Shown: one piece after another, positions 31,362 to 64,000 of the stretch | Layout of the letters: every line of letters starts with the position of its first letter | Position numbering within the stretch: position 1 is the first letter of the stretch | NCBI RefSeq assembly: GCF_041381155.1 | Contig: NC_091143.1 | Span: forward strand, 38,269,996-38,333,995 | Source of the DNA: Argopecten irradians | Taxonomy: Eukaryota > Mollusca > Bivalvia > Pectinida > Pectinidae | Length of the DNA stretch: 64,000 nucleotides | Reading direction: 5' to 3' | Notes under the pieces: model-generated | Database searches by the model: none | Told to the model about the DNA's origin: nothing | Seen by the model: the letters and a program-made list of their open reading frames with translations, nothing else | Made by a program: the position numbers and the translations under genes

Positions 31362-34300
31362 ATGAAGACGATTTTACTCACCCTTCTGTCTGCATCAACC
31401 GCCCTGGCTGCAGTCACCCTCAACACAACTAGCTACATGAAGCTGCCAAGTTGTGAAAGCGGAAGCGAAGACATGTTTCTAGACAGTGCTGTGAAGGCTG
31501 TTTTTGATCCAGCTAGCAGATTGCTATACGTTACAGGTTAGTCCAGTCAAATCTCGATAAAGATGCTCCATCGCAGACTTTTGGTATTTTTTCTCTGTCA
31601 AAAACAGGAGCAGACAAATCTTCGGTTACAAAAGTTACTTACTTCACACCATTATCACCATTGGAAAATTACTTATTTTAATTCAAGATAAAAATAAAAT
31701 ATAAATATTAATTACGTCCTGGCAAAACTCCATGGCACTATGTCCTATATGGAATTATAAGTACTGATTGTGCATACACCAAATGTAAAATAAACTATTT
31801 TACATGGATTTTTGTGTTAATGAGACATACATATACACTATTAAACATCAGTTATGCTCTGTTGGCGATGGAACATCTTTAATTAAACATAACGGATTTT
31901 ATTTTGAAGGTTCAACATGTTTACATGTGGTTAGCATAGAAAATCCAAGCCGACTGGTTCTTGTATACACGAAGTTTTTTAACAAGGCCAATGACGGGAA
32001 AATCGTCGATATAGCTCTATGTGGAAACAAATTAGCTTTGTTGCTTGAGAGTACATTCCAGTATACTGAGGGCCACTTTTACGACTGTACACGCTTCAAC
32101 TTTAATACTGATCCCCCAGTAGACTGCACCGACGCTATCACAGGTTTGTTTTAACACCAAGTATGTCACTATCGACGGGTGTCAATGAGATATATCTACT
32201 GGTCTCAAGGAGAAATGTATGAGTGTCAAGGAGAAATTTATGGGTGTCAAGGAGAAATGTATGGAAGTTAAGGAGAAATGTATGGATGTCAAGGAGAAAT
32301 GTATTGGTGTCAAGGAGATGTGTATGGGTGTTAAGGATAAATTTATGGGTGTCAAGGAGAAATGTATTGGTGTCAAGGAGATGTGTATGGGTGTCAAGGA
32401 GAAATGTATGGGTGTCAAGGATAAATTTATGGGTGTCAGGAAGTGTATGTGTCAAGAGAAATGTATAAGGAAATTAATGGTGTCAAGAAATGTGAGGGTC
32501 AAGGAAATGTTGGGTGTAAAGGAAATTATGGTGTCAAGGAGAAATGTATGGGTGTCAAGGAGAAAGGTAATGGGTGTCAAGGAGAAATGTATGGGTGTCA
32601 AGGAGATGTGTATGGGTGTTAAGGATAAATTTATGGGTGTCAAGGAGAAATGTGTATGGGTGTCAAGGAGAAATGTATGGGTGTCAAGGAGAAATGTATG
32701 GGTGTCAAGGAGATGTGTATGGGTGTCAAGGAGATGTGTGTGGGGGTGTAAGATAAATTTATGGGTGTCAAGGAGAAATGTATGGGTGTCAAGGAGAAAT
32801 GTATGGGTGTCAAGGAGATGTGTATGGGTGTCAAGGAGATGTGTGTGGTGTTAAGGATAAATTATGTGGGTGTTCAAGGAGAAATGTATGGGTGTCAAGG
32901 AGATGTTGGGTGTGAAATGTATGGGTGTCAAGGAGAAATGTAGGTGTCAAGGAGAAATGTATGGGTGTCAAGGAGAAATGTATGGGTGTCAAGGAGAAAT
33001 GTACCGGCGTAAAATATAAAACTTACTTTAAAACGCTACTTGCCATAGACACCAAATTTGGCTAACAAATCCTTGGGCATAGGGAAACCGAGTTTTAATA
33101 AATCTTGGCTTTGAACCCCTTAGGACAGGAAGGGATGACGACAGTGGTGAAAAAAAAATATTTGAGGTGAAGGAAAGAAGTACGAATGTAAAAGACGAAA
33201 AAGAAACATTTTATTTAAAGTAAAACATTTTATTTAAAGTAGAGGGGAGTCGTAGCGACCGATCTGTCCTTTTCATCTTTTTGTTGAAATCCTTTCATTT
33301 TTAGCTCACCTGGGCCGAAGGGCTGCTAAGGTTTTATCATAACGCGGTGTCCGGTATCCGTCCGTCTGTCCAGTTCCCCGTCCGCCAGTCCGTCAACATT
33401 TTCTTGAAATCGCTATTAGTCATAGAACTCTGCTCGGATTATAGCCAAATTTGGCCGGAAACATCCTTGGTCAAAAGGAAATAGAGTTTGGAGATTTTTT
33501 GCTCCGAGTATCCAAGGCAGGAGAGTAGGGCCTCATCGGGAAAGCCAGAAACATCAATGGGCGAAGGGGAGCAAAATTTATATAAATCTTGACTTTGAAC
33601 CTAAGGCAGGGCGGGCATTAAGGTTAAATAGTGGTAAATACTTTAAACCGCTACTAGTCATAAAGGTCTGCATGGATTGCAACTTTGGCCAGAAACAACA
33701 TTGGGCGAAGGGGAATAGAGTTTGTATAAATCTTGGTTCTGAACCTAGGGCAGGAGCGGGAATTGTGTGAATGGGAAAAGAGTTTGTATAAATCTTGGTT
33801 CTGACACCCCTGGAACAGGTACGAAGCCAAATAGAAAAATAAATTAAATCTTTAAAATCATTGAGAAAATAAAACCAGGTGAGCGACAGGCCATCTGGGC
33901 ATCTTGATATCATGATCACTATAACTAAAAGTTTATAATTAATCAGCCTTAAATCCACTTAATATCATACTTCATTCATTTGTTAAGTTGTGTGTCAAAT
34001 GTCACTTAAGCTGTGCAACATGTCGGCCTTTCAGTTGGAGAATCTCCAAAGAGCATGGCTTTTACACCTGACTGTTCAAAGTTAGTAGTGGCCAATGAAG
34101 GGCGAGCTGGGACACTAAATGGACGACGAACAGATCCCGATGGGTCAATTACAGTGGTCACTATGAATTCCGACCCTTCGTATAGCAGAAAACTATCTTT
34201 TACACATTTCAACAATAAGTAAGTAATTAAGCAAATGAGGCGGATGTTTCGCCCCACTTGTAAAGCACGACCTCGTTCCTTGCCTTTTTCAGCTTACCTG

Positions 34301-37300
34301 GTCCTGAAGACAAAATCATTGTAAGTGGAGATTCAAAATTGTATAAATGGTCTGACAGACCCTACTGGGGGCAGTGGGTGCTTTGGGCCTGAGGGGCGGG
34401 GCCAAACGTGATCAATTTTGCTTTTTTAACTTGTATTTTTTTGTAATAATTACTGTAACAGAGTGCAGGATTTTATTAAAATGTAATCGCTCTGGATCTC
34501 TAAATTGCTAGTCTGACGCTCAACTGATCGAGCTAAAGAGATGTTCTCTCAAGCCAAAAAGTATATTTCGGCGACAAAGACCTTGGGACCTCTTGTTTAA
34601 TCAAATGTTAATTGATGACATATGCTTTTGGTGGAGGGCTACATATATGCAAAAATAAACAGCAGTTTCCTAAGATATTCACGTAAAATAAACCATATTT
34701 TAATAATTCATTACAAGAATTAGATTTAAACATATTTAACAGAAAGTTGTTTGTATTTTTTCAGCTACTTATCTTATATAGAAAAAGGAGTCCGAAATCC
34801 TTTCAGCGATGACGTCACCACGACGTTTTCCCAGGACATTGAGCCGGAAGCGGTTGCCATCAGTGATGATGGCCAATGGGCTTACATTACACTTCCGGTA
34901 AATTTCAGTTTGCATGTGGTAAAAATGTGGTTTCGCTTTCTTGTTTGATTTGTTGGTTCTCTCGACATTATGTCGTATTTAGGCAAAAAAAATAATGTCT
35001 GTTTAGGCTTAACCGACCGACCTTAATTTGGACCCTCGACCCTATTTTTTCCCCATTTTTATACGAAAAATAAAAAAAGTCGGGATTTCGATCTTAGACT
35101 CCGGTTCGGCTTATTATTTTAAAGTGAAAAACACTAAAAAAAAGGAAAAAAATTCCTCCCGACCTACCGACCTGCCAATGTAACCCTAAACAGAGATTTT
35201 CTTAGCCTTATCTGTTGTGCCGTCTAGTTTCTTTCTATGATGTACATCAGAGAAGGTTTTTTTTAATAAAGATTTAGTTACACATACATATACCAATGAT
35301 GACAATGAATTAGTCGACATATTGCGAAATAAAACTAGCTTTTTTTAACATTTGAGCTATCGACCTTATTTACAAATGTTATATGGTCCTATAGCTAGTG
35401 ATTTACACAAAAAAATATATATATACACACACCTATTATACATCCACGACGAAGTAAATTGGATTGAGTTTGTCGGTGTGTAGACACAACGATCGACCAA
35501 CTACTTCTCCTTTACTACCGGAGGGGTTTCAATGAAACTTGGTGGCAATATTCCTTATACAATGTATATGAACGTTATCTATATTTGAACAAAGCACCTT
35601 CATCCTTTTTTAGCGTTGATACAGAAACGATAAAATGACTACTCCTCATAAACTACTGGATGAATTCGAATGATACTTAATGGAAAATGTCCTTGTAAAG
35701 TGTAGATGTGTATAATCTATATCTAAACCACATATCTCCGTCTTTTGCATGATGTCCCTTTATTACAAGCTGGACGGGTACGTGTTAAAATGATAATTTC
35801 GAAAGATGAGGAAAGAAAGGTATACATTGGCCTAAATCCATCAAGCCAACACGTTTTTCAATGACTTGTAAAGTGTGGCCTCTTCACCATCAAGATTGAC
35901 TACAAAAGTATTTCGTACTTAGATGTTGAAATGTTTTTGCTTTTTTGTTTATCTCGATTTTTTTGAACATTTTTGCAATTCATTAAAGAATTCTGTGTCA
36001 AGGACAGTAATGTAAATTACTATTTAATCGCAATGCTATTTTTACTATTGCTCTAATCGGCTAACCACGAAAATATCTATCCACGAAATTTTGTCTAAGC
36101 TCCTCGAAAGAAAGAACCCACAAATATTTCATGCCAGGCACACACCTAGCCTGTACGTTTTAGTTCAAACGTCATGCGAATTCATGAACATTTTTAAGCA
36201 ATGGTTTATTTAGCATTAAAACATAACTTTCATGCTGAAAACTTACTAATTATTATTTATTAGATATTCAACTCTTTAATTTACATTTAAACGCTGATTA
36301 TATGAATCATCCTCTATACTTCAGAGGTAGCTATCACTGACGTCATATCCATCCCAGGGCTATCTCATAGTAAAACTGAAAGCAGTTCTGAAGAAAAGAT
36401 CTTCCTAAAACAGGCTTGCATATGCTACCTTTGAAAACTACAGAGAGAGCGATGCCAAACTTCAAAGCCACACATTTATCCACAGTATACCGTTATACGA
36501 TTCTTTTGATGTACATCAAAGGACTGAATTACCTGTGGCTGTTGTTGCCTCCAGTTTTGCTATGAGGTAGTCTAAGGGTGGATATAACGTCAGTGATAGT
36601 AACCCCTGCAGTGGTGAGGATGAGGGTCTATAAACTATTAGTATACGGAATGTTGTAAAGGTGAAAAGAATTTCCATTTTGTTTTTGAAGGAAAACAATG
36701 CAATGGCGATTATAAATTTGGTGACTGAAGCCTGGGATGATATATATCCATTAGGCACCAAAGCCTGGGGAGGAAGCCGCTTGTTTGATGGCAGCGACAT
36801 AGACGGAGGTAAGTAATTGATTACTCGAGGGGGGTCAGTTTTATTGATACATTTATTATCATGTAACTATAAGTATTAAAAGTTGGATAACGTTTTCTGT
36901 TGTTGGTGATTACCTTCTGTAATTATGGTGATACTAGGTATTAAATGATCTAAAGCACAATGCCTTACAAAGTATGTATTAAAAGTGGTGACGTCATTAC
37001 GACGTCAATGATTTTCATTTCATACAAACAAAAAACAACAACTTTGGATTGCATGATTGCATGTTTTTGTATAGATTGATATATTTCCGTTGCTTGTGTA
37101 TGGTATTGCTTTGTTAGTTAAACGTTCTGTTAACATCCAGGGTCATATTCTGTGTGTTTTATTATGTAAATTCGACAGTAGTTTGCAATCGTTATTTGAA
37201 TTACTGGTTTGCCCAATACAATATCGTATAGATAAAAATGGTCATTTTGAATTGTGCTGCTTTTTATCATCTTATTGTATGGCAATAAAAACCTATTTAC

Positions 37301-40300
37301 TCAAAGCTGTGTAACACATTTTGTATCATTCATAACCAGAGAAGCGTATCAAATAGAAAGAAATAGAAGAAAGCAAGCTAACATAACATGTTCATAACAT
37401 AACATTAACATGTAGGATTGGTTTCTTCTATTTAAATGCAAGAAGTATCCGCTACAAAGTTTTTAATTTGATATTGATTAATTAACTAAGATTTGAACAA
37501 CATTTGTGGAAGAAAGTTGATACCTGTTTGAATTAAATCAAATTATTATCATCTTCTAAGCCCATTTTGTTACATTTACTCTGTAAAGTTAATAGCCATC
37601 GTATCAGCCAACCAGAGGCGGCGATACTATGTCGTGTGACAAAATGCAGCCAATGAAAATGCTCGTTACAAATACGCTTCTCTGTCCTCCAGGTCCATTT
37701 TTGAATTCGTATGATGTTCGCGGGATGTACCAGCCGACAGGAGCTGTGTTCGTTACCACGGGCATATCGTCTTATGTTGTGACGGCCAACACTGGCGCTC
37801 CCAAGGTCTACACTACTGCTGAACAAGGGGTCGACTTTACAGATGCGATATCTGCGGCCAACGCAATGGCCAGTGAGTAGATATACATATATAATAGTAT
37901 AAAACGTGCAAGGAATAATATTGGGGATGTGACAATAGTTGAATACAAGTACAATTCAATTTTGTGTCACAAAAATCAGTTTTGTCACCGAATCCAAATA
38001 TGGATATGCAAATGAAATGTCTCATCACGATTTTGTAACGTGGCCTCTCAATGGATATAGTGACTGTTGGTATGGCACGCGCACACGGTGTTAAACCAAT
38101 GTGTGATTACATAATGGATAGGCTGCAAGCACCTGTATTTGTATCATCCGTTTAATTTTTGTGGATGTTTAATATACTTACAGTGATCAGCAGAATATGT
38201 CCCAACTTCTTGTGAAAGACGCATGTCCTAAAATATCATTTATTAGGCCTATTAGAAGAGGAAGGAGGTTACGATATCAAATGCAAGCCTATTAGGTACA
38301 TACAGAAATGGATAATCTATGGAAAATACTAGTAGTCTTTCATGGGAAATGCACATGAATTGTCATAAGCGTAATGATTACATATATATATTCATCAAAT
38401 ACTCGTTCACTATCATAACTTCAAAGTATGGTTACCCTTCGCCAAAGAATGAGTAAACTGTAAGCGTTTCAACAGATCGGTTAGGAGCTTACAAGTAAAG
38501 GTCAAACATGGACTTATTTGCATACTGAATTGACGAAAATTTGTCATAACAACAGGATTTTTGTCCGCTGAAATATAATTTTTGTTATTTTTGTCATTAC
38601 GGAAATGAAGTTGTTATAAAAAAAACATTGTTTGTTAGACGAAAATGATTTTGTTACGACAGAATTCAATTTGGTGTTCACAAAATGGAATTTTGTCTAC
38701 AAAATTGAATTTTGTCTTGACTTTTGTCCACTGAAAGATTGTTTGTATAACAAAACTTATTTTTGTAATATGTTATAAATTTTGTTAATCTGAACTCATT
38801 TTTTTTACCATAATTCATTTTTGTCTACATAAAATCTGATTTCGTGTACAAAATCACAAGTGTCCCATTTGGCGCCCCGTTTTTGAAACATATCTGACAG
38901 AAACGTGGTGGAAATATATAATAATAGATAATTATATCTAATCCATTCGACTCACATGAAATACCTGAAAGTCTGAATGGGAATGTGAGTATACCCTAAA
39001 ACTAGTTCCATTCTACATCACGTGACATTTTACCTGCAGAACATATTTAGCTCGAGTCAGCGCTGTGTATTATGTGTGGCCTTTAGCTATGCATGAGGAA
39101 AGTGAACTTACCTTTTTGTTTTGTTCTCTGCAGATAACCTTATTGACCAAACAGAGATATCCGGTTCCCTTGCTCTCGATTTGTCTTCTGATTACAGACT
39201 AGGTAAGCGATAAAGTGTAAATAAGTCAGTGTTAAATAGTATATCTGAGGTAAGTAATATTATGTAAATAAGTTAATTGTATTGGGTATCTATAATGTCA
39301 GATGAGTTATTCAGTAAGTAGTATGGTGTAACAAGTAAATTGTATTGAGTATCTAGAATGTCAGATGAGCTAAGTAACATTATGTAAATAAGTAAATTGT
39401 ATTGGGTATCTAGAATGTCAGATGAGCTAAGTAACATTGTGTAAATAAGTAAATTGTATTTGGTATCTAGAATGTCAGATGAGCTAAGTAACATTGTGTA
39501 AATAAGTAAATTGTATTTGGTATCTAGAATGTCAGATGAGCTAAGTAACATTGTGTAAATAAGTAAATTGTATTTGGTATCTAGAATGTCAGATGAGCTA
39601 AGTAACATTAGTAACATTGTGTAAATAAGCAAATTGTATTGGGTATCTAGAATGTCAGATGAGCTATAACATTGTGTAAATAATTTATTGTATTGGGTAT
39701 CAAGAATGTCAGATGAGCTAAGTAACATTGTGTAAATAATTTATTGTATTGGCTATCTAGAATGTCAGATGAGCTAATTAACATTGTGTAAATAAGTAAA
39801 TTGTAGGTATCTAGAATGTCAGATGAGCTAAGTAACATTGTGTAAATAAGTAAATTGTATTGGGTATCTAGAATGTCAGATGAGCTAAGTAACATTGTGT
39901 AAATAAGGTATCTAGAATGTCAGATGAGCTAAGTAACATTGTGTAAATAAGTTAATTGTATTGGCTATCTAGAATGTCAGATGAGCTAAGTAACATTGTG
40001 TAAATAAGTTAATTGTATTGGGTATCTAGAATGTCAGATGAGCGAGCTAAGTAACATTATGTAAATAAGTAAATTGCATTGGGTATCTAGAATGTCAGAT
40101 GAGCTAAGTAATATTATGTAAATAAGTAAATTGCATTGGGTTATTGGGTATCTAGAATGTCAGATGAGCTAAGTAACATTGTGTAAATAAGTAAATTGTA
40201 TTTGGTATCTAGAATGTCAGATGAGCTAAGTAACATTATGTAAATAAGTAAATTGTATTGGGTATCTAGAATGTCAGATGAGCTAAGTAACATTATGTAA

Positions 40301-43300
40301 ATAAGTAAATTGTATTGGGTATCTAGAATGTCAGATGAGCTAAGTAACATTGTGTAAAAAAGTCAATGTGAATGGGTGAACACATAACTTGGAAACACTG
40401 CACTGTAGATATGAATATACATTGTACTTGATTCGTGAGTATGATTATTACGGCGTATATAACTTTAAGATAGAAAGCTTACCCCTCGGGTTTAGATTCT
40501 CCTGTCTCACTCCGAAGAGTTGAAGGATTCTAATAATCTTACCTTATGGTAAAACAAACTACGCGAGAATTTTGCATTTTTTCAACAATTATATGAGGTT
40601 ATCATTGCTTGCATTGTCGACACATCATTATTGGAGACACAAATTAAAGTTGCGCACGGGGTAAGAGAAAAAAAAATTAACCCTCTTTGGTGTGAGGCAG
40701 GAGATCTCCATCCTCGATATAATATTCTTAAGCTGTCAAACACTCGCCACAGGTTTAGATTCTCCTGTCCCCTGCCACAGCCTTGTGTTTGACAGCTTAA
40801 AAGTCGTAGCCTTGGGTTGATATCATCCATTATCCCGCCTCAGACAAGGATCTTGTATTCCTATTGGTTAAAATGTCGTCACGTGATATCCCAGATATAG
40901 TCGTATCAGGTTAGTAGAAATCGTATCAGGTTTGGACGACGATAGAGTTATCGTTCCTTGCCCCTAACGTCATTAGCAACAAGATGGCGGTCAAGTAACG
41001 CTTCGCGACGACGGCACTGAAAGTGATGAAGACAAAATATTTGAATGATAGCGCTGATGATCGTTTTCAAAGCAAACCGGAATCGGCAACACTTATTTAG
41101 GATTATTTAGCAGAAATGGACCATGACAACGCATTCTAGTCTTCAATGAGGTGAAGTTTTGAGTCGTTTTGGTTTCCATACTCCGTGCATTATTTGCATT
41201 TTGCAGTTACTTCATCGAAAGGGTCCTCGACGGGATAAATTCGTTACACAGTTTGTTAGTGAGCTAATACGGAAAAAAATATTGGGTCTAAAATAACATG
41301 TATCAGGCTCGGCTTCGCCTCTCCCGATACAAGTTTATTTTAGACCCAATATTTTTCCGTATTAGGTCACTAACAAACTGTGTAACTAATAGTCTAATCC
41401 CAATACTTGCTATCGCGATTAAGCAGGATTTAATCCCCTTGTTTGTAACTCACCTTTTTGGAGAGTTCCACTAATCGCGATAACAAGTATTTGATTGAAT
41501 TATTAGTTTATTATATTAGCTCTTGATAGAAGTTGTATTTATTATGGCAGAAAACACGGTAGATACATGTAGCAAAAAGGAAAAGCTACAGTCAATTGGG
41601 TATATTTCTACGACTTCAGACGTCAAAATTAAATATAAAAAAACATCAATTCGTATGTCACCTTTTTATAAAACATTGTTAAAGTCCGCCATGACGATTT
41701 AGAATCTGCTATCTTAACCACATTTGTCGGTATGTTACTGTTCGAAAACTTCCTCCAGCGTTCAGAAAAGTGTCAATCGAGTTGATCTTAGGCGATGGTG
41801 TTCTTACCTGGCCTCATTTGTTGATCTTAACAATTTTTTATAGGTAGACTCCTCATCAGCAATAGAGATGGGAGGAGCGAGACCATCAATACCCTAATTA
41901 AAACTGTCCATTTGTTCGGTGGTCGAGACATAGGATTTTTTAACACAGCCACAAAAACTTTTTCCTTCACCACAAACGATGACCTGGAGAAAAAGGCACA
42001 AGAACGCTATCCTGCGGTTTTTAATGGCGACTGTTCTAACGCGTCTGTGTCCCCAGCTGCCGAGATGGACAGCAGATCGATCAAATTGGTAAAGCATTCA
42101 AACAGTTTTTAGCTCACCTGGCCCGAAGGGCCGGTGAGCTTATGTCATGGCGCGGCGTCCGTCGTCCGTCGTCCGTCCGTCGTCCGTCCGTCCGTCAACA
42201 TTTCCTTTAAATCGCTACTAGTCATAGAGTTCTGCATGGATTGTAACCAAATTTGGCCACAAACATCCTTGGGGGAGGGGAAACAGAACTTGTATAAATT
42301 TTGGCTCTGTCCCCCCCCGGGGCAGGAGGGGCGGGGCCCAATAGGGGAAATAGAGGTAAATCCTATAAATCGCTACTTGTCCTAGAGTTCTGCATGGATT
42401 GTAACCAAATTTGGCCACAAACATCCTTGGGGGAGGGGGAACAGAACTTGTATAAATTTTGGCTCTGGTCCCCCGGGGGCAGGAGGGGCGGGGCCCAATA
42501 GGGGAAATAGAGGTAAATCCTTTAAATCGCTACTAGTCATAGAGTTCTGAATGGAATGTAACCAAATTTGGCCACAAACATCCTCTGGGGAAGGGGAACA
42601 GAACTTGTATACATTTTGGCTCTGGTACCCCGGGGGCAGGAGGGGCGGGGCCCAATAGGGGAAATAGAGGTAAATCCTTTAAATCGCTACTTGTCGTAGA
42701 GTTCTAAATGGAATGTAACCAAATTTGGCCACAAACATCCTTGGGGGAAGGGGAACAGAACTTGTATAAATTTTGGCTCTGACCCCCCGGGGGCAGGAGG
42801 GGCGGGGCCCAATAGGGGAAATAGAGGTAAATCCTTTAAATCGCTACTAGTCATAGAGTTCTGAATGGAATGTAACCAAATTTGGCCACAAACATCCTTT
42901 GGGGAAGGGGAACAGAACTTGTATAAATTTTGGCTCTGGTCCCCGGGGGTAGGAGGGGCGGGGCCCAATAGGGGTAATAGAGGTAAATCCTTTAAATCGC
43001 TACTAGTCATAGAGTTCTGAATGGAATGTAACCAAATTTGGCCACAAACATCCTTTGGGGAAGGGGAACAGAACTTAATTTTGGCTCTGACCTCCTGGGG
43101 GCGTTAGGGGTGGGGCCCAATAAGGGGATTTAGAGGTTAATATTAAAATTCCTTCAGAAAAGAAACAATGAACCTGTATTCAGAACATTACTTGGCATTA
43201 CAAACCAGATGAGCGATACAGGCCCTCTAAGCCTCTTGTTTATGTTCGGAATTTCAATCCGTTTACTATGGACAAAATTATGATCAAAGATGTAAGAACT

Positions 43301-44749: not shown

Positions 44750-44802
44750 TTCTCTATTTGGTTAAATCTTTTCTGATTTTTTTATGTACATACACTTACA
44801 TG

Positions 44803-49970: not shown

Positions 49971-49980
49971 ATTGGATGAT

Positions 49981-50964: not shown

Positions 50965-50972
50965 GTTAAACC

Positions 50973-53900
50973 ATGCGGAGCTGCCTGTGTTTCATCTTTT
51001 TGTTCGCCACTACCGTCGCCCAAACTTTAAATTTGGAAAATGTTGGTTACCTGAAATTACCGGACTGTAGAACTGCCAATATGCAGATGTTTTCCAACTC
51101 GGCGATGAAGGCGGTGTTTCATGAAACGTCACGGTTGTTGTACGTAGCAGGTAGGAAACTTGCTTTGTGTTTGTCAATATATAGTGTCGCAGTGTACAAT
51201 GGTGAATAAATCGCACAAATATATGTTGTACCAATACTTTATGGCAGGCAAGACTACCATGATCATTTCTAACATGAGGTTACATGTATTCCGCCTTTGC
51301 ATTTTACAGAGTAACCTCCCTTCCAGATAGGTATCAATTGTGACGTCATTATTTTGTGAACGCAACTCACGTCAATTTCATTGAATAATATGACGTTATC
51401 TTCGGAAACACATGACGTCACAATAAATACCTTCGCAACTGTTTTCAATAAAAAGTGGCGCTGACCATGATCTGGAACATGTTTAAACTATTCTGATTTT
51501 CTATAAATACAAGTTTGGAGTACTCATTTCAGTAATTTACACACATTTACACGTAACAATCTTGGCCTAGTTTCATGAACGTTTCTTTAAATTTAAAGAT
51601 GCTCCACCGCCGACAGAGCATAAATGATATTTATCATTTGAACAATAATTGGTGTTTAATCGTGTATATATATGTATATATGTATATGTCTAATAACACA
51701 AAAATTTACATAAAATAATTATTTTGCCTTTGGTGCATGCGCAATCAGTACTTCATTCCATATAGGATATAGTCTCACGGAATTTTTTCGGGATGCAATT
51801 AATGATATTTTGTAATTTTAACTTAAAGTCAAATTAGAAGCTCAAGCTTTCCAATGGTGGTAATGGTGTAAAGTAAATAACTTTTGTAACTGAAGAAAAA
51901 TACTAAATCTCTGCTCCTGTTTATGATAGTGAAAAAGTACCATTTGTCAGCGGTGGAGCATCTTTGAGGAGTTCCTTAACTTAAAATTATCCATAGGAAC
52001 GCATTACATATTTTAAGGAAAACTCCTTAACTTAAGCTTGTTTCCTTAACTCTTGTAATTCCTTCCTATGGTGTATTTTAAGTTAAGAAATTCCTTTGCT
52101 TTCCTATGGTGTATTTTAAGTTAAGAAATTCCTATGCTTTCCTATGGTGTATTTTAAGTTAAGAAATTCCTATGCTTTCCTATGGTGTATTTTAAGTTAA
52201 GAAATTCCTATGCTTTCCTATGGTGTATTTTAAGTTAAGAAATTCCTATGCTTTCCTATGGTGTATTTTAAGTTAGGAAATTCCTATGCTTTCCTATGGT
52301 GTATTTTAAGTTAAGAAATTCCTATGCTTTCCTATGGTGTATTTTAAGTTAAGAAATTCCTATGCTTTCCTATGGTGTATTTTAAGTTAAGAAATTCCTA
52401 TGCTTTCCTATGGTGTATTTTAAGTTAAGAAATTCCTTAAAATTGAGAAATGTTAATGAAACTGAACCCTGGACAAATATTGATAATCGGGAGTATTGGG
52501 ACCAGACAAGTTGTTGTAACTATTGTTTCTGTTATTTACATTGACCCAAATTTACATTCGTAAGAGGCATTACTACGTCACACTTCTATATATAGTGGCT
52601 CAAAGTATGAGTGACTCCATAGTATTAGATATGTTGATTTCGTGTCAAACATTAAACTATATAAAAAGTGCAATAATTGACCTACAAAGAACGTAAACAT
52701 TTAGATATCCGTATTACAAATTAATTATAACAAATAACAAATAGTATTTAAGTGGAACTTCTGGTCTGTCGAATTGGAAATAAATAAATCAATAAAAATA
52801 AATAAATATTATAGATCATTTATATATAACTGATCACAGATATCATAGGTCATTTACATAAAGGTTATCAGAGATATCATAGGTCATTTACATATAAGTT
52901 ATCACAGATATCATAGGTCATTTATATATAGCTTATCACATTTATCATAGGTCATTTACATATATAACTATCACAGATATCACAGGTCATTTACATATAG
53001 CTTATCACAGATATCATAGGTCATTTACATATAGCTTATCACAGATATCATAGGTCATTTACATATAACTTATCACAGATATCATAGGTCATTTACATAT
53101 AACTTATCACAGATATCATAGGTCATTTACATATAGCTTATCACAGATATCATAGGTCATTTACATATAACTTATCACTGATATCATGGGTCATTTACAT
53201 ATAACTGATCACAGATATCATAGGTCATTTACATATAGCTTATCACAGATATCATGGGTCATTTACATATATAACTATCACAGATATCATAGGTCATTTA
53301 TATGTAACTTAACACAGATATCATATGTCATTTACAAATAACTTAACATAGATATCATATGTCATTTACATATAACTGATCACAGATATCATAGGTCATT
53401 TACCTATAACTTATCACAAATATCATAGGTCATTTACATATAACTTATCACAAATATCATAGGTCATTTACATATAGCTTAGTTCATGTATCATAGGTCA
53501 TTAACATGTATTGTAAAAACGTCTATGACATATGTAGAGTTCTAGATGTGTAGCTCCAAATATATGTAATATGTTGTTAATTATATTGTTATATCATTTA
53601 ACAGGTGAATCGTGTGTACACGTCGTTAATGTTGGTATAGCAAGTGCACCTACCCGCATTAAAACGCAGCTTTTTAATGATGGGTTGGACGGAAAGATAA
53701 AAGATATTGCGGTCTGTGACAACACGATAGCAGTATTGTTAGAGGGTCCAGAAGCTCTAGGCGAAGGTCACGTGTACCTATGCGACCCCTACTCGACCTT
53801 CACTAATGAAATGGACTGCACGCGACAGAACAGAATTATAGGTAAGTATATATAGTCTACTATTAATTATGAAAACTGTTATCGTGATAAGTCAACAAAA

Positions 53901-56900
53901 GGAAAGGAAAGTACAAAACGAGCGTTTTGCAGTATTTGCTTCCTACCGAAAAAATAAAAAAAATATACCATATACAAGTATGAAGACTTAAATATTCATA
54001 AATAAGAAATAACTTTTATGCACAATATGTGTTTAAAGAACTTTATGACTACCATGAACTTGCCCAGGATTTATAACTACCAGAATTGCCATGAACTTTA
54101 CCCGGATTTATAACACCAGAAACACCATGACCTTGATCTGGATTTTAACTACCAGATTCACCATAACCTTGACCTTTGTTGTTATTTTAGACCTCTAAAA
54201 CACACTGCACTTTCTTTCCAAAATCCAAGATGGACGTCAAAGTCATTATCTTGGAGCATGTTTTAATCTTTTTCCTATTCGAATGGTGCCAAGCTTATAA
54301 GGTTGCATTGTCTGATGACTACTTCTCTTGTCTATTGTAGTCGGCGATTCACCGACGAACATGGAATACACCAGTGACTGCAAAAAGCTGCTCGTAACAA
54401 ATTCAGGCCGCGCTGGATTAATAAATGGAGTATTCACAGATCCCATAGGCTCAGTCACCATCATTGACAAACGTTTAGCGACGGAGGGAGCTCCCTGTAC
54501 GAGAGAACTTTCATTCACCTACTTTGATGACCGGTGAGATTTAGAGTGAGCATGTGGTAGACAATACTATCAGAGTGTGTCAATATGTGGATATGAAGGA
54601 TAGGGATATTCTACCCGAGGGTCACAAAATGTAGTAAAACCCGAGGCTTGCCGAGGGTTTTGCAACATTTTGTGACCCCGAGGGTAGAATATCCCTATCC
54701 TTCATATCCACTTATGAAAGAGTATTTTTCTTTCATACTTCGACGTTTTATTGAAATTTTACAACTAAAATATCCCGCCATTTTGAAATAAATTCGAATG
54801 AAATCCACGACTGGAAGTCGTTTTCCCATACAAGAAAAATTACATGATACTTACAACACGAATTCCGTTGTTTGCATCTTTTAGAGTAAAATCAGTCATA
54901 TTTGTGAAAAAAAATGTTAAAATTTTAGCGAGGAAATAGAGATTTTGTTGACGCCGTGACGTCACGAGGCTTTATTGCATGGGTAGCCATGCAATACAGC
55001 CTCAGGCGACATGAGTGTATTGCCCTGGACCAGCCAGTATTACACGTGTAGGTATGAAAGAAAATAATATCATGGTGTGCCAATATAATAGGGTTGTTTC
55101 ATTCAGCACCGACTATCTATCTTTAGAAATGGCAGTCTCTACCTATTTTCTCACATTAGGACATTGGTTTCTCTCTAATATTTTAGCGAAAGTGCTGGGT
55201 AGCTCAGAACGATCATAGAGGAGTTAACTTATTCATTGACTATTATTATCATGAGTGCTCGGTAGCTCGGTAAGATCGGAAATGAGTTAACTTATTCATT
55301 GACTATTGTTATCAGTGAGTGCTCAGTAGCTCGGTAAGATCGGAGATGAGTTAACTTATTCATTGACTATTATTATCATGTGTGTCGGTAGCTCGGTAAG
55401 ATCGGAGATGAGTTAACTTATTCATTGACTATTGTTATCAGTGAGTGCTCAGTAGCTCGGTAATATCAGAAATGAGTTAACTTATTCATTGACTATTGTT
55501 ATAAGTGAGTGCTCGGTAGCTCGGTAAGATCGGAGATGAGTTAACTTATTCATTGACTATTATTATCATGAGTGCTCGGTAGCTCGGTAAGATCGGAGAT
55601 GAGTTAACTTATTCATTGACTATTATTATCATGAGTGCTCGGTAGCTCGGTAAGATCGGAGATGAGTTAACTTATTCATTGACTATTATTATCATGAGTG
55701 CTCGGTAGCTCGGTAAGATCGGAGATGAGTTAACTTATTCATTGACTATTATTATCATGAGTGCTCGGTAGCTCGGTAAGATCGGAGATGAGTTAACTTA
55801 TTCATTGACTATTATTATCATGAGTGCTCGGTAGCTCGGTAAGATCGGAGATGAGTTAACTGATTCATTGACTATTATTATCATGAGTGCTCGGTAGCTC
55901 GGTAAATCGGAGATGAGTTAACTTGATTCATTGACTATTATTATCATGAGTGCTCGGTAGCTCGGTAAGATCGGAGATGAGTTAACTTATTCATTGACTA
56001 TTATTATCATGAGTGCTCGGTAGCTCGGTAAGTCGGAGATGAGTTAACTTATTCATTGACTATTATTATCATGAGTGCTCGTAGCTCGGTAAGATCGGAG
56101 ATGAGTTAACTTATTCATTGACTATTATTATCATGAGTGCTCGGTAGCTCGGTAAGATCGGAGATGAGTTAACTTGTTCATTGACTATTATTATCATGAG
56201 TGCTCGGTAGCTCGGTAAGATCGGAGATGAGTTAACTTGTTCATTGACTATTATTATCATGAGTGCTCGGTAGCTCGGTAAGATCGGAGATGAGTTAACT
56301 TGTTCATTGACTATTATTATCATGAGTGCTCGGTAGCTCGGTAAGATCGGAGATGAGTTAACTTGTTCATTGACTATTATTATCATGAGTGCTCGGTAGC
56401 TCGGTAAGATCGGAGATGAGTTAACTTGTTCATTGACTATTATTATCATGAGTGCTCGGTAGCTCGGTAAGATCGGAGATGAGTTAACTGATTCATTGAC
56501 TATTGTTATCAGTGAGTGCTCAGTAGCTCGGTAAGATCGGAGATGAGTTAACTGATTCATTGACTATTATTATCATGAGTGCTCGGTAGCTCGGTAAGAT
56601 CGGAGTGAGTTAACTATTCATTGACTATTATTATCATGAGTGCTCGGTAGCTCGGTAAGATCGAGATGAGTTAACTTATTCATTGACTATTATTATCATG
56701 AGTGCTCGGTAGCTCGGTAAGATCGGAGATGAGTTAACTTATTCATTGACTATTTTATCATGAGTGCTCAGTAGCTCGGTAAGATCGGAGATGAGTTAAC
56801 TTATTCATTGACTATTATTATCATGAGTGCTCAGTAGCTCGGTAAGATCGGAGATGAGTTAACTTATTCATTGACTATTATTATCATGAGTGCTCGGTAG

Positions 56901-59900
56901 CTCGGTAAGATCGGAGATGAGTTAACTTATTCATTGACTATTATTATCATGAGTGCTCGGTAGCTCGGTAAGATCGGAGATGAGTTAACTGATTTCATTG
57001 CACTATTATTATCATGAGTGCTCGGTAGCTCGGTAAGATCGGAGATGAGTTAACTTATTCATTGACTATTATATGACTACTCGTAAGTTATACATATAGT
57101 GCTCGGTAGCTCGGTATCGAGATGATAACTATTCATTGACTATTATTATCATGAGTGCTCGGTAGCTCGGTAAGATCGGAGATGAGTTAACTTGTTCATT
57201 GACTATTATTATCATGAGTGCTCAGTAGCTCGGTAAGATCGGAGATGAGTTAACTTGTTCATTGACTATTGTTATCAGTGAGTGCTCAGTAGCTCGGTAA
57301 TATCAGAAATGAGTTAACTTATTCATTGACTATTATTATCATGAGTGCTCGGTAGCTCGGTAAGATCGGAGATGAGTTAACTTATTCATTGACTATTATT
57401 ATCATGAGTGCTCGGTAGCTCGGTAAGATCGGAGATGAGTTAACTGATTCATTGACTATTATTATCATGAGTGCTCGGTAGCTCGGTAAGATCGGAGATG
57501 AGTTAACTTGTTCATTGACTATTATTATCATGAGTGCTCGGTAGCTCGGTAAGATCGGAGATGAGTTAACTTATTCATTGACTATTATTATCATGAGTGC
57601 TCGGTAGCTCGGTAAGGTCGGAGATGAGTTAACTTATTCATTGACTATTGTTATCAGTGAGTGCTCAGTAGCTCGGTAATATCATAAATGAGTCAACTTG
57701 TTCATTGACTATTATTATCATGAGTGCTCGGTAGCTCGGTAAGATCGGAGATGAGTTAACTTGTTCATTGACTATTATTATCATGAGTGCTCGGTAGCTC
57801 GGTAAGATCGGAGATGAGTTAACTTGTTCATTGACTATTATTATCATGAGTGCTCGGTAGCTCGGTAAGATCGGAGATGAGTTAACTTGTTCATTGACTA
57901 TTATTATCATGAGTGCTCGGTAGCTCGGTAAGATCGGAGATGAGTTAACTTGTTCATTGACTATTATTATCATGAGTGCTCAGTAGCTCGGTAAGATCGG
58001 AGATGAGTTAACTTGTTCATTGACTATTGTTATCAGTGAGTGCTCAGTAGCTCGGTAAGATCGGAGATGAGTTAACTTGTTCATTGACTATTGTTATAGT
58101 GAGTGCTCAGTAGCTCGGTAATATCAGAAATGAGTTAACTTATTCATTGACTATTATTATCATGAGTGCTCGGTAGCTCGGTAAGATCGGAGATGAGTTA
58201 ACTTATTCATTGACTATTATTATCATGAGTGCTCAGTAGCTCGGTAATATCAGAAATGAGTCAACTTGTTCATTGACTATTGTTATAAGTGAGTGCTCAG
58301 TAGCTCGGTAATATCGAAATGAGTTAAATTCATTGACTAGTTATATGAGTGCTCGGTAGCTCGTAAGATCGGAGATGAGTTAACTATTCATTGACTATTG
58401 TTAAGTGAGTGCTCAGTAGCTCGGTAATATCAGAAATGAGTTAACTTATTCATTGACTATTGTTATCAGTGAGTGCTCAGTAGCTCGGTAATATCAGAAA
58501 TGAGTTAACTTATTCATTCACTATTATTATCATGAGTGCTCGGTAGCTCGGTAAGATCGGAGATGAGTTAACTGATTCATTGACTATTGTTATCAGTGAG
58601 TGCTCAGTAGCTCGGTAATATCAGAAATGAGTTAACTTATTCATTGACTATTGTTATAAGTGAGTGCTCAGTAGCTCGGTAATATCAGAAATGAGTTAAC
58701 TTATTCATTGACTATTGTTATCAGTGAGTGCTCAGTAGCTCGGTAATATCAGAAATGAGTTAACTTGTTCATTGACTATTGTTATAAGTGAGTCTGTTAT
58801 TGTGGTATAATATTTGCAGAAAAGACAACTGAGGATATCTGCATATACATAGCCGATACTACAGGGGTTACTATCATTAATGTTATATCCACTCATTGCA
58901 GTACATCAAAAGAATCGAATAACGGTACACTGTGGTTGATTGTTTTGCTTTGAATCGGGCGTCGCCCTCTCTGTAATCACCATGGAAGTTTTTGCTGACC
59001 TGCGATTGGTTCAGGTTCTTTCTCCTGAGCTGCCGTCAATTTTAATTTAAGATAATCCAGGGATGGATATAATGTCAGTGATAGTTACCCCTGGGATATT
59101 GAGGATGTTGCATATATAGTTCGACAAGAATAACTTGAAAGATATTTAATAAAGCATGAGAAGTGATACGAATCCCAACCGCCAAATACCTAGCTCATTA
59201 AGAAAACCATCCGGCTGGTGTTAGGAAACCATCCGGCTGGTGTTAGGAGGTCACTAGTTCAAACCCTGGTCTGGTCGCTATAGTTTCCCGTGACCTGTTA
59301 AGCATATAATTATTTCCATAAGTGACGATACGATATTATAAAACCAATATTTGTAAAAAAAAATAATAAAGACGTGCAAAATAAAGTGAATACCTTTTAT
59401 TGCGGTCAATAAACCGCATGACCAAATTATTATAAAATTATAGTGTCATATATCCTTAAATATTTGTTTGGGTAACAGTTTACAATACTATATGGCCCAA
59501 GGATTGCGGTGGACCTATAGAGGAGACCATAATAATGGTATCGTCACCAAGTTTTCAAACGACCTAGAACCATCGCATGTAACCATCAATGGCGACAATA
59601 CCCGGGCGTACGTCACCTTACCGGTAAGTTTGTGTGTGATTTTGTCTCTGTGTAGCTTAGTTATCTGCCCTTGCTATCCACCTTATTAAGTTTCTGGGTG
59701 ATTCTGTCTCCCAGGTAGCCGGGGTATCTGCCTTTGTTATCCACCTTATTGGTAAGTTTGTGGATGATTCCATCTTCTCGGTAGGTGGGTTATCTGCCCT
59801 TGGAATGCACCTTATTAAGTTCGTGAGTAATCCGGTTGCGCCGGATGCTTAGTTATTTGTCCTTGGTAATCACCTTGTTGGTAAGATTTTGTGCGATTAT

Positions 59901-62900
59901 GTCTCCTTTGTAGCTGGGTTATCTACCCTTGGTGTCCACCTTATTGGTAATTTTGTCGGCCATTCAGTCTCCTCGGTAACTGAGTTATCTGCCCTTGGTA
60001 TGCACATTAGCGATAAGTTTGTTTGTGATTCCAATTTCTCGGTGGCTGGGTTATCTGACTTGTTACCCACCCGATCAAGTTTGTGGGTTATTCTTTCTCC
60101 CCAGAAGCTGGACTATCTTCTTTTCATACGTGTAATGAAGAGAAATGTAAAAACAAACCTAAAACTGAATGTTTCATATGCCACATATGTATAAGTTTGT
60201 AGTAAGTTTGAGCACCCGATATTCCTTATCACGTACCTACAATAGCACTTACAATACGTTACATAATGCAGAGCAGGTACTATACCGTCTTTGTAATTGA
60301 CAGGTGGCCAATGGCATTGCGGAAATAGACCTGACAACAGATTCCTGGGTAGACATGTATAATATGGGCTACAAAGATCTTTCAGCCTTCCAAATTGACG
60401 CAAGTGACTCTGATTTCGGTGAGTTCGTTAAAGATTATTTCTCAAGACCATGGGGCAAGTGACTATCACTTTTGTTAGTCACGGTTTTACAAATATAACT
60501 GTTGTAATTTTACAAGATAATTAACGCCATTGACTATTTCTATAATGCATTAAATGCTGAACGTTACCGGACTATTCAGGTCAGTGACGATTTCTGTGAT
60601 ATATCAAACATGTTCCACCGCCGACGAATGATACTTTTCAGATTATTTATTATTTTTCTTCAGTTACAAATTACCTTACGTTTTACCGTCACTACCACTG
60701 AAAAGTTTGAGCTATTCTTTTCTAATTTTAATTCATGATTAAAATATTAAAACTAATCAATTGCATCTGGAATAAATGGAGTACTGATTGCTTATACACC
60801 AAATCCAAAATGAATTATTTTATTATGTTGCGGAGGGGCATCTTTAAATGCTGAACATTTCCTGAATATTAATGCTTGTGACTATTTCTATGATACATTA
60901 AAATTGTTTGCCATGTTAACAGATGTTTAAAGCTAATAAGGAATCAATCAATAAATGTGATACTTTAAATATTCAATTGTTTTAACGCCTCGATGCAGAA
61001 ATGTTATTTCAGCGCAGTTTCTCATGGGAAATACACTAATTAAAACTACATATTTACTTAATGTATTTTATCCACTGAAAGAAAAATATATGTTTAGATA
61101 ACGATTATAAATATATATTTGTATTCAGGTGTCAATATGGTCAGCGGTTATACGATAAGAGCTTTAAAACAACCAACTGCGGCCGTTTTTGTGAAGGGAT
61201 CATCGATTGATTACGTCGTTACAGCAAATACAGGCGCAATGAGAACTTACACGATGGACGTTCATGGAGTGGACTACACGGATAACGCTAGAGGACAAAC
61301 AGTGTTTTTCGGTAAACAAAGATTTATTCATTTATTCTTCAGACATTATAAAATATTCATAATTTATAAAAAATAATAATATGTTTAAAGGCCCACTACC
61401 TCTTTAAAACGGCTTTTATATTTTAAAATTGAAATGTAAAACGAGATTGATCATTTTGTAGTCACAAAAGTTTTAAGCTTACCGTTAATACTACGCGTAT
61501 CATCACCTTTTGGGCAATTAAATAGAAATAAATAAATGTTTATTTTCATAATTTGGGTCGTCTATGTTTCCTGCCGTCGTCCTAATTACCGCGCGGTAGT
61601 TGATTATCACTGCGCCAGACGGCAAAACAGCGAAATTAATCTTCACTGTTAACATAAATGACGCAGGATATCTTGCATTTGTTTGGTGTTGTAACCTCAT
61701 CTTATGCCGTCGATATATATTTTTTCGTTTGTTATTATCGCTTTTAAGAAACTTTTAATTGTTATTTCGGAAAAGAAGTTGCCTTTAATCATTTTATCGA
61801 TTGGTTAAGCAGCTTAACTACTGCAAAAGAAAAAAAAGTGTTTTGTTTTTATTTAAATTTTTATAGACAATCAGAAAAGGTCATATGTAAATTATTTCAA
61901 TACACACATGGTTTTTTATGATATCTAAATACATGTATGAGCTACATTGAAGTTCTTACTATCAATCAGATGGAGAACTTGACAACACGGAAATCTCTAG
62001 CACACTTGGCTCCGACCTGAATGCCAACTCACGTCTTGGTATGGTTTCATATCTTTCTTTTATTTTAGCGTCTGTTTTTTATGCTTTGCTTTGATATAAA
62101 ACATCTTGTCAAAGTGCATTGATAAATGTTCTACCGGGAAAGGAAAATTCCATATCGATAACAAAGACGGCATTGCCGTCATAAGGAAAATAAAAAATGG
62201 ACACAAATTACAGAAATAAATAAATAAAAATCTGGCGATATGTGATCTGCTAAACACTAAAATCCACATGGGAACAAGGCAACAGGTGTATACATATAAT
62301 ATGCTTAAATGTACATTTTTATCCAAGGCCGACTGCACATGAGCACTGTGGATGGACGAAGTTTTGTGTCTGGGCTTATCACCAATCTGTACACTTTTGG
62401 CGGAAGAGAACTTGGCTTCTGGGACCTTGCATTCAATACCAACACGTCAACTGCTGATGATCTGGAAACTATTGCTGCCAGTTCGTATCCCTCTGTTTTC
62501 AATGGCGATTGCTCTGATGCGACGTTAAGTCCGGCGGACGAAGCTGACTCACGCTCGGATGATCTGGTAAAGCCTACATTGTACAGGTCTAAAGCATGTT
62601 TGATTATTTAGCCCGCTACGTGTTTGTTACATAAAATATAGTTTTTGTTTTATTTACTGCATTTACCTAGTGGGTGATAAGGCTACGACTAATCTATTTA
62701 CTTGGTTCTTACATGAACATGTCAAAGTTCTAGAAGTTCTAGATTTAAGTTTACAAAATATCACCTACAGACAATCTTTTGTCAGAAGGCCTACCGTACA
62801 CTTGACTTTCTATTAACATTATTAAATTAACTAAGACAAGACATTCCGACAGCTAATGATTACGTTACTTCAATCAACCCATCCTTTCAAAACAATTGTG

Positions 62901-64000
62901 TGACCTGATCGCACAACGTACCTTAAACATCGTGCGCACATCGTACAGTCGTGCGCTCGATGTCTGCACGATGTTCTTTGGTACTCTGTGCGAACAGGTC
63001 ACTCAACTGTTTATAATCATGTAAAATGTAAATCAAGTCATATTAAAGTTTATTTACTAATACCGTATCTAAACAGAGATCCTCTTCACAGGACTCAAAA
63101 CACTTAAGATAATATATCAAAGAGTACAATGTACATGATGTTACTAAACCTTCAGATTTCAGATTTATAACTTTTATGATTCTCCCAACGCTTCTTTAAT
63201 CTGTTTTAAAATCTAAAGACGTTTTTATTTGGTTCTAAAACAACATTTTCGGGAAACTTGCTCAATATTTTTACCATTCTGAAGGCAAAAAATCTCTTGG
63301 GAAAATCCATTCTTGAATGCCGTGGGAAAAAATCAACGGACGTTTTACCATTCTGAAGGCAAAAAATCTCTTGGGAAAGTCCATTCTTGAATGCCGTGGG
63401 AAAAAATCAACGGATGTCCCCTACTACACTTACTGTGTGTGGAAGAATGGACGATGTTAGGGCCCCGAACATTGTGTACATTTTATCGTATGTTAATTTG
63501 TAGGGCCCTGAACCTTGTATACATTTTTATTGTATGTTAATTTGTAGGGCCCTGAACCTTGTATACATTTTTATTGTATGCTGATTTGTAGGGCCCCGAA
63601 CCTTGTATACATTTTTATCGTATGTTGATTTGCAGGGCCCTGAACCTTGTATACATTTTTATTGTATGTTAATTTGTAGGGCCCCGAACCTTGTACACAT
63701 TTTTATCGTATGCTGATTTGTAGGGCCCCGAACCTTGTACACATTTTTATCGTATGCTGATTTGTAGGTCCCTGAACCTTGCATACATTTTTATCGTATG
63801 CTGATCTTGCTAATTTGTAGGGCCCTGAACCTTGTATACATTTTTATGGTATGCTGATTTGTAGGGCCCTGAACCTTGCATACGTTTTTTGTAGGGCCCT
63901 GAACCTAATGTACTTGCCACCTATAAGTACAATGAAACTCCGCTGATTGCTGCTGCCGCACGGAATGGACTGATGTATCTCTATATAATGGCTTTCAATA
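50973..64000 (+). CDS. MSP130-like secreted glycoprotein, copy 2 (choice-of-anchor I beta-propeller family), nine exons, 3' end outside the window
   Basis: Tandem paralogue of copy 1 and probably the same role: a secreted glycoprotein of the MSP130 family. Exons: 50973-51150, 53605-53841, 54341-54533, 59479-59623, 60304-60418, 61129-61311, 61970-62038, 62328-62566 and 63895-64000 (continuing), phases 1,1,2,0,1,1,1,0. 488 residues are encoded before the edge. Signal peptide MRSCLCFIFLFATTVAQ. Domain landmarks in order: YLKLPDCRTANMQMFSNSAM, HVYLCDPYS, GDSPTNMEYTSDCKKLLVTN, DPIGSVTIID, EPSHVTINGDNTRAYVTLP, ANGIAEIDL, IDYVVTANTGAMRTY, LYTFGGRELGFWDL, SYPSVFNGDCSDATLSPADE and GPEPNVLATYKYNETPLIAA. 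All seven mature cysteines match copy 1. One sequon of copy 1 (CSNAS) is lost here (CSDAT). The last exon or exons, and any anchor signal, cannot be judged. Introns are swollen by minisatellites. Confidence 0.9.
51287..51432. mobile_element. Family 1 element, copy 3, intron 1 of MSP130-like gene 2
   Basis: TATTCCGCCTTTGCATTTTA, CAGAGTAACCTCCCTTCCAG and ATAGGTATCAATTGTGACGT form the left end. The right arm is partly inverted (ATGACGTCACAATAAATACC) and truncated. Confidence 0.7.
51595..51965. mobile_element. Family 4 element, copy 3 (371 bp), intron 1 of MSP130-like gene 2
   Basis: AAAGATGCTCCACCGCCGAC and GTCAGCGGTGGAGCATCTTT are inverted termini. The interior is collinear with the copy at 25712-26049. 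Confidence 0.85.
52030..52440. repeat. 38-bp minisatellite, around 10 units
   Basis: Unit TTCCTATGCTTTCCTATGGT, GTATTTTAAGTTAAGAAA; nearly identical in the middle. Intron 1 of MSP130-like gene 2. Confidence 0.92.
52830..53510. repeat. 34-bp minisatellite, around 19 units
   Basis: Unit ATAGGTCATTTACATATAAC, TTATCACAGATATC. It ends about 95 bp before exon 2 of MSP130-like gene 2. Confidence 0.92.
54050..54185. repeat. About 36-bp degenerate tandem repeat, 4 units
   Basis: ACTACCAGAAACACCATGAC, CTTGACCTGGATTTTA and variants, in intron 2 of MSP130-like gene 2. Confidence 0.6.
54587..55066. mobile_element. Family 5 element, copy 2, with a 125-bp hairpin at its left end
   Basis: 54587-54711 is a near-perfect palindrome: GTGGATATGAAGGATAGGGA, TATTCTACCCGAGGGTCACA, AAATGT, loop with ACCCGAGGCTTGCCGAGGG, then the exact inverse. 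The remainder matches 27943-28325 (ATTGCATGGGTAGCCATGCA, ATGAGTGTATTGCCC). It begins 53 bp after exon 3. Confidence 0.8.
55185..58800. repeat. 63-bp minisatellite/satellite, about 57 units (3.6 kb), intron 3 of MSP130-like gene 2
   Basis: Unit: GAGTGCTCGGTAGCTCGGTA, AGATCGGAGATGAGTTAACT, TATTCATTGACTATTATTAT, CAT. Variant classes differ at fixed sites (GTTATCAGTGAGTGCTCAG; AATATCAGAAATGAG; TTGTTC or TTATTC or TGATTC) and are interspersed, a sign of repeated local amplification. Period 63 leaves long minus-strand frames (21-residue repeat). I regard these as non-coding. Confidence 0.95.
58846..59107. mobile_element. Family 2 inverted-repeat element, diverged copy
   Basis: GATACTACAGGGGTTACTAT, AACGGTACACTGTGGTTGAT, CGGGCGTCGCCCTCTCTGTA and ATGTCAGTGATAGTTACCCC, ending TATTGAGGATG. 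The central part is inverted relative to 44996-45312. It abuts the 63-bp array. Confidence 0.7.
59185..59285 (+). repeat. Possible tRNA-derived SINE fragment
   Basis: CTAGCTCATTAAG resembles a degraded A box and AGTTCAAACCCTGG a B box about 65 bp on, the spacing enlarged by a 23-bp direct duplication (AAACCATCCGGCTGGTGTTA). It does not fold as a functional tRNA by eye. Confidence 0.35.
59624..60130. repeat. About 64-bp minisatellite starting at the exon 4 donor, around 8 units
   Basis: The first unit begins at the real donor: CACCTTACCG|GTAAGTTTGT. Later units repeat CACCTTATTGGTAAGTTTGT, then GGATGATTC, CTCGGTAGCTGGGTTATCTG and CCCTTGGTATG, so donor-like GTAAGT recurs at about 59752 and 59881. 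It fills most of intron 4 of MSP130-like gene 2. Confidence 0.88.
60610..60845. mobile_element. Family 4 element, copy 4, diverged, intron 5 of MSP130-like gene 2
   Basis: ATGTTCCACCGCCGACGAAT and GTTGCGGAGGGGCATCTTT form the ends. The interior keeps GGAGTACTGATTGCTTATAC in reverse sense to copies 1 and 3. Confidence 0.6.
61387..61800. mobile_element. Family 3 element, copy 3, opposite orientation, intron 6 of MSP130-like gene 2
   Basis: It starts AAAGGCCCACTACCTCTTTA. Internal TTACCGTTAATACTACGCG and GCGCCAGACGGCAAAACAGC are reverse complements of the 18879-19283 copy. The right end is decayed. Confidence 0.75.
62630..63268. other. Intron 8 sequence, plain
   Basis: No repeat partner or exon. 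A short palindromic run around ATCGTGCGCACATCGTACAG then TCGTGCGCTCGATG occurs near 62930. Confidence 0.35.
63269..63416. repeat. About 74-bp direct duplication
   Basis: TTTACCATTCTGAAGGCAAA, AAATCTCTTGGGAAA, TTGAATGCCGTGGGAAAAAA, TCAACGGA occurs twice with two mismatches. Intron 8 of MSP130-like gene 2. Confidence 0.9.
63461..63894. repeat. 44-bp minisatellite carrying copies of the exon 9 splice acceptor, around 10 units
   Basis: Unit: GGGCCCTGAACCTTGTATAC, ATTTTTATCGTATGCTGATT, TGTA. Each unit holds TTTGTAG|GGCCCTGAACC, the same bases that form the real acceptor and the first codons of exon 9 at 63891-63905. Copies differ mainly at CCC/CCT and TATAC/TACAC. Confidence 0.93.

Follow-up and report, generated by a model that had tools for sequence, protein, structure and literature searches.

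A three-gene MSP130-like array in Argopecten irradians with shared ancient introns and graded loss of conserved glutamates

The array and its relatives in the genome

We analysed a stretch of 64,000 nucleotides from the scallop Argopecten irradians (NCBI RefSeq assembly GCF_041381155.1, NC_091143.1, positions 38,269,996 to 38,333,995 of the forward strand), hereafter the window, in which an earlier note had described a tandem pair of MSP130-like genes. Copy 1 is a complete gene of ten exons joined from the window (31362-44749, + strand) and encodes an open protein of 542 amino acids (aa). Copy 2 starts at 50973 on the same strand, and the distance from the stop codon of copy 1 to its ATG is 6,223 base pairs (bp), in line with the roughly 6.2 kilobases (kb) given in the note; the window edge cuts its exon 9, and the frame is open for 453 aa through exon 8. 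All splice sites of the two joined models are GT..AG. The exons are listed below, each supported by the joined model and by spliced alignment unless stated otherwise; coordinates past the window edge refer to C10, the contig that carries the window.

31362..31536, + strand, copy 1 exon 1 (carries the start codon; N-terminus hydrophobic)
31910..32143, + strand, copy 1 exon 2
34035..34218, + strand, copy 1 exon 3
34765..34897, + strand, copy 1 exon 4
36691..36808, + strand, copy 1 exon 5
37693..37872, + strand, copy 1 exon 6
39134..39202, + strand, copy 1 exon 7 (69 bp, phase 1 at either side; also by candidate scoring)
41844..42088, + strand, copy 1 exon 8
44341..44531, + strand, copy 1 exon 9
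44650..44749, + strand, copy 1 exon 10 (includes the stop, AATAAA about 50 bp 3'; joined model)
50973..51150, + strand, copy 2 exon 1
53605..53841, + strand, copy 2 exon 2
54341..54533, + strand, copy 2 exon 3
59479..59623, + strand, copy 2 exon 4
60304..60418, + strand, copy 2 exon 5
61129..61311, + strand, copy 2 exon 6
61970..62038, + strand, copy 2 exon 7 (69 bp)
62328..62566, + strand, copy 2 exon 8
63895..64000, + strand, copy 2 exon 9, first 106 bp within the window (spliced alignment)
C10:38333890-38334098, + strand, copy 2 exon 9 complete (spliced alignment past the window edge)
C10:38335541-38335631, + strand, copy 2 exon 10, model ending before the stop (spliced alignment past the window edge)

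Joined models and spliced alignment both confirmed that the two genes share all eight comparable introns in position and phase (1,1,2,0,1,1,1,0), as the earlier note had claimed, and added a ninth common intron of phase 2, which in copy 2 lies past the window edge. The 69-bp exon 7 described for both copies was likewise recovered; in copy 1 it topped 32 open AG..GT candidates of 57-81 bp in the interval between exons 6 and 8, with a score of 52 against 2 for the runner-up. The two proteins are indeed well diverged, with 43.3% identity by BLASTP and 46.9% over 535 aligned residues in the family alignment. The spliced aligner was written for this analysis; it re-derived copy 1 exactly and copy 2 only at a raised intron penalty. 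Three micro-exons in the intron 3 region and a shortened exon 4, proposed for copy 2 at low penalty, were alignment artefacts that disappeared at a higher intron penalty. For copy 1 exon 4, a start at 34782 and then another wrong match each broke the frame, which a start at 34765 restores.

Both proteins match a single Pfam family, the choice-of-anchor I family PF22494, at 118.3 bits (copy 1) and 71.4 bits (copy 2) over a gathering cut-off of 32. The two copies are thus placed in one family rather than in unrelated ones, and the MSP130-like identity proposed in the note holds if PF22494 is, as we take it to be, the family of animal MSP130. The NCBIfam model NF038117 scored 204 and 167 bits (E 3.9e-60 and 7.8e-49), below its cut-off of 300, and on these profile scores the window proteins belong to the wider choice-of-anchor I family, outside the bacterial subfamily NF038117. 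The comparison sequences comprised bacterial, archaeal, viral and plasmid records together with this genome. The sole sequence match of copy 1 to a solved structure, at E up to 1, was the archaeal surface-layer protein 1l0q. Structure prediction and fold comparison gave a beta-propeller for a bacterial relative (L055), matching, among the folds listed, those of YncE, 1l0q and WDR5, and by homology to L055 the window proteins would also be beta-propellers, with seven blades as in the matched WD40/YncE folds. The N-termini of copies 1 and 2 are hydrophobic when read by eye, and the array proteins may be secreted.

The genome of 846 million bases was searched with the proteins of copy 1 and of paralogue h, and spliced models were then built. 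A third array member, copy 3, was modelled on the same strand, 12 kb beyond copy 2, so that the tandem pair of the note stands as to adjacency and is incomplete as to number: the array is a trio, with five further family loci elsewhere.

C10:38347373-38361396, + strand, copy 3
C10:37.32-37.33 Mb, locus d (spliced model)
C9:7.43-7.45 Mb, loci e and f (spliced models)
C9:22.68 and 22.76 Mb, loci g and h (spliced models)

The genome therefore holds at least eight family loci, a lower bound because the search scores only the best candidates. The search with h returned the same eight loci plus a single match on C2 with an E value of 0.56. Looking for further copies yielded noise and nothing else: on both strands of the window to the left of copy 1; on the + strand in the gap separating copies 2 and 3 and, past copy 3, as far as C10:38393000 (chains of tiny exons, scores 144-192); and, with scores of 28-33, in the surroundings of d (+ strand) and of e and f (- strand). 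Locus f (C9:7434665-7441190; L047, L048), next to e, contains in-frame stops and irregular exons and is likely a pseudogene. Exon 8 of g (C9:22678398-22678641, L052) was matched as two overlapping pieces in two frames, perhaps a frame break or an assembly error, and it was not joined by changing any base.

All three array copies have ten exons, GT..AG splice sites and no internal stop in the parts modelled, which begin at the ATG in copies 1 and 2 and reach the stop codon in copy 1. Identity between copies 2 and 3, which are sisters in the tree, is 75%, with a nonsynonymous divergence (dN) of 0.17 and a synonymous divergence (dS) of 0.55-0.60; the resulting dN/dS of about 0.3 indicates that both are under purifying selection. 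The dS of copy 1 against copies 2 and 3 is beyond estimation. Judged by these comparisons, copy 1 branched first and copies 2 and 3 separated later.

Age of the introns and origin of the paralogues

The earlier note had placed the introns before the duplication, a claim that was borne out and proved understated. All nine intron positions and phases are common to copies 1, 2, 3 and d. In h, the sixth intron is displaced by three residues, next to a shorter exon 7 of 60 bp, and the other eight match in position; exon 7 measures 69 bp in copies 1-3 and 72 bp in d and e. Eight introns were recovered in e, where the model of exon 1 is uncertain and one micro-exon is probably spurious, and eight in g, where the seventh, at the poorly modelled exon 7, is missing. 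Exon 8 of g and exon 1 of g and h were also poorly modelled, the last being cut at the edge of the fetched DNA. The shifts 281/282 and 342/343 (one residue each) and 510/517 were scored as the same intron because they fall at alignment gaps. In the family alignment, identity between the array and the remaining paralogues is 23-30%, and the recurrence of a near-identical intron set at such distances exceeds chance and implies that the introns are far older than the array duplication. The 2015 paper of Szabo and Ferrier carries the conserved msp130 gene structure across Bilateria in its title. A passage of PMC7351957 gives that conserved structure as the conclusion of these authors. An ancient shared msp130 gene structure is already known and is not new here.

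We built a tree from the seven readable paralogues (f was left out) and 43 of 80 retrieved bacterial loci. The seven paralogues form one side of a branch, with support of 100/98, against the 43 bacterial proteins. One clade together with shared introns argues for a single origin of the copies in this animal. On the sequences compared, tree and introns speak to the copies in this genome, not to the date or occurrence of a transfer.

Conserved residues and splice-junction repeats

The bacterial reference for conserved residues consisted of 43 rows, in which 90 alignment columns are at least 90% conserved, 23 of them acidic. Paralogues outside the array keep most of these acidic columns (d 15/23, g 21/23, h 19/23, e 20/22), while copy 1 keeps 10/23 and copies 2 and 3 keep 8/23 each. 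Five glutamates, at L055 positions 133, 220, 293, 422 and 475, are invariant in 43/43 bacterial rows, and all five sit at, or just past, a strand end in the predicted structure of L055. Locus f was left out of the glutamate count; d, e, g and h each retain four of the five, copy 1 retains two, and copies 2 and 3 retain none. Contrasts with paralogues were significant: copy 1 against h gave p 0.013 for acid sites and p 0.041 for the other sites, and copy 2 against e gave p 0.00015 and 0.047, respectively; we chose these pairs ourselves among related sequences, so they are not independent tests. The graded loss of glutamates in the array is the new finding here and suggests a changed function. 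On this reading, the other loci would have retained an acidic site, possibly one for calcium or for a substrate that carries charge, and the array would have dismantled it.

The cysteines show the converse pattern. Copy 1 has seven and copy 2 has ten through exon 8, and the family alignment places a copy 2 cysteine opposite each of the seven, matching the seven conserved cysteines of the earlier note; Cys131 slips out of register in the larger alignment that includes bacteria. Cysteines 96 and 150 of copy 1 occur in all seven paralogues, and in 1/42 and 0/42 bacterial rows, respectively. The five others are common to copies 1-3, and none of them was seen in the paralogues d, e, g and h; for one of the five, Cys31, the surrounding stretch is unmodelled in both e and h, and g has a gap there. 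At each of the seven positions, 0 or 1 of 42 bacterial rows carries a cysteine.

Minisatellites occupy 3,877 of 13,388 bases in the copy 1 span (29%) and 5,891 of 13,028 in the copy 2 span (45%), against 2,925 of 31,361 bases in the left flank and 114 of 6,223 between the genes, after overlapping rows were merged by hand. Two of them in copy 2 include splice junctions.

59614..60071, + strand, minisatellite that takes in the 3'-terminal 10 bp of copy 2 exon 4 and continues into intron 4
63458..63889, + strand, minisatellite in copy 2 intron 8 whose unit carries the intron 8/exon 9 acceptor

The intron 4 unit of 66 bp repeats the exon 4 donor. The intron 8 unit of 44 bp places ten copies of the exon 9 acceptor ahead of the real one, and reading from any of these decoys ends at a stop in 41 codons or fewer. 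In copy 3, intron 8 holds six decoy acceptors of its own (C10:38360085-38360331), and their intronic part differs from that of copy 2. An exact 22-base pattern taken from the decoy repeat matched the genome nine times, four times in intron 8 of copy 2 and five times in intron 8 of copy 3, and its reversed control gave zero genome matches. We then scanned 63 introns of seven genes with junction probes of 28-30 bases, allowing up to 8 mismatches. Two or more junction copies occurred only in copy 2 introns 4 and 8 and copy 3 intron 8; single donor-like matches appeared in copy 2 intron 9 and in d introns 5 and 6, and the 126 reversed probes gave 1 match in all. Copy 1 showed no junction-derived repeats. 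Most of copy 2 intron 3 is occupied by a 63-bp unit repeated 57 times (window 55191-58793).

For other genes, 30 of the 61 stop-to-stop open reading frames of the window were scanned against Pfam. An open frame at 5862-6161 carries a TORC/CRTC C-terminal domain (PF12886, E 3.2e-19), and another at 20906-21217, upstream of the array, carries a KxDL domain (PF10241, E 2.7e-12). A zf-RVT match at 16270-16830 is weak and under the cut-off; it is perhaps a retroelement remnant.

Interpretation and comparison with known systems

The evidence from profiles, gene models and introns makes it probable that the locus is a three-gene array of the MSP130-like family whose introns are older than the duplication. 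Two local rounds of duplication from a nine-intron ancestor would account for it, copy 1 splitting off first and copies 2 and 3 later. In the wider family, to which the four other readable loci and the bacterial proteins belong, the glutamates at the end of the equivalent strand in five blades would most likely make up an acidic ring for the binding of metal or a substrate. Within the array this set would have been dismantled stepwise (two of five left in copy 1, zero in copies 2 and 3) alongside a gain of additional cysteines, and the array proteins would most likely be disulphide-stabilised secreted matrix or surface binding proteins, no longer acidic-site proteins. Taken alone, the step to a changed function in the array is a tentative proposal to which we give somewhat less than an even chance. 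The full account is more doubtful still: an acidic-site propeller turned into a cysteine-rich structural propeller, with the losses (4, 2, 0) readable along the duplications and the output of copies 2 and 3 damped by their ten and six decoy exon 9 acceptors. The meaning assigned here to the glutamates and disulphides, and a role in mineralised tissue, are what we infer from sequence.

Several points weigh against a dismantled acidic site. None of the seven paralogues has glutamate 475, which limits the animal set to at most four members before the array arose. The retrieval pattern for the bacterial set contains E220, so the invariance of that residue is partly pre-selected; six plasmid proteins found without the pattern, by similarity to copy 1 (fetched out of 10 hits listed, from 17 records), have glutamate at 29/29 readable positions, with one gapped. 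Fisher's test within one copy showed acid-site loss not significantly more frequent than loss at other conserved sites (p 0.23 for copy 1 and 0.15 for copy 2), and plain relaxed constraint on a fast-evolving branch could explain the loss of acids. The structure prediction covers the bacterial L055 rather than the window proteins, and the meeting of the five glutamates in space is deduced from strand positions, not from coordinates. In the tree, the join of d with the array unites long branches and is unsure.

The retention of three open copies, with purifying selection on copies 2 and 3, would also be expected if the copies had kept one common biochemical function and split tissues or stages among themselves, since intact retained duplicates agree with split expression. 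However, the array has lost conserved acids that the four other readable paralogues retain, which points to changed chemistry beyond a change of expression; divergence at the conserved acidic set thus makes a changed function the better fit, and we regard such subfunctionalisation, raised in the note, as rather unlikely. That the lost glutamates reflect mere decay of copies on their way to becoming pseudogenes is improbable: ten exons with GT..AG sites and zero internal stops in all three copies, the dN/dS of copies 2 and 3 and the conserved cysteines outweigh the long branches of the array, its repeat-rich introns and its decoy splice sites, which decay would explain. A passage of PMC4536745 reports, and doubts, the view of Ettensohn 2014 that MSP130 genes were transferred several times independently, and the family is widespread in bacteria (at least 583 matching stretches), so that the array and the C9 paralogues might have come from different sources. 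The same introns are not expected twice from intronless donors, however, and the shared positions and phases, together with the single clade against the 43 bacterial rows, render separate bacterial origins highly improbable for this genome; other phyla lie beyond the reach of this argument.

MSP130 has been discussed as a bacterial gene that aided animal mineral skeletons. Introns common to paralogues down to 23% identity point to a single entry into this lineage and a single, ancient set of introns. The graded loss of otherwise invariant glutamates offers a concrete residue-level test of acid-rich against acid-poor paralogues. The points worth following are the trio and its loss of conserved glutamates, within a known family with a known ancient structure.

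Judged by the Pfam domain, which we take to be that of animal MSP130, the window proteins fall in the same family as the MSP130 proteins known from sea urchins and from the shells of molluscs and brachiopods. Sea urchin msp130 is called lipid-anchored in the title of a reference, whereas the C-terminus of copy 1, SLKEIRSE, is charged and without a hydrophobic tail when read by eye. According to passages in PMC6368272 and PMC4536745, MSP130 belongs to the shell or skeleton matrix of urchins, molluscs and brachiopods; the former calls its function unclear. Propellers of the YVTN/WD40 type (YncE, 1l0q and WDR5) share the fold of L055 at about 8-14% identity in the listed rows, with no common function implied. 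The bacterial choice-of-anchor I proteins (PF22494, NF038117) share the family profile and conserved columns with the window proteins; among the matches listed, identity is 32-40% between bacterial loci and paralogue h, and 25-30% between plasmid hits and copy 1. They differ from the array in having all five glutamates and hardly any of the animal cysteines, and the window genes have introns.
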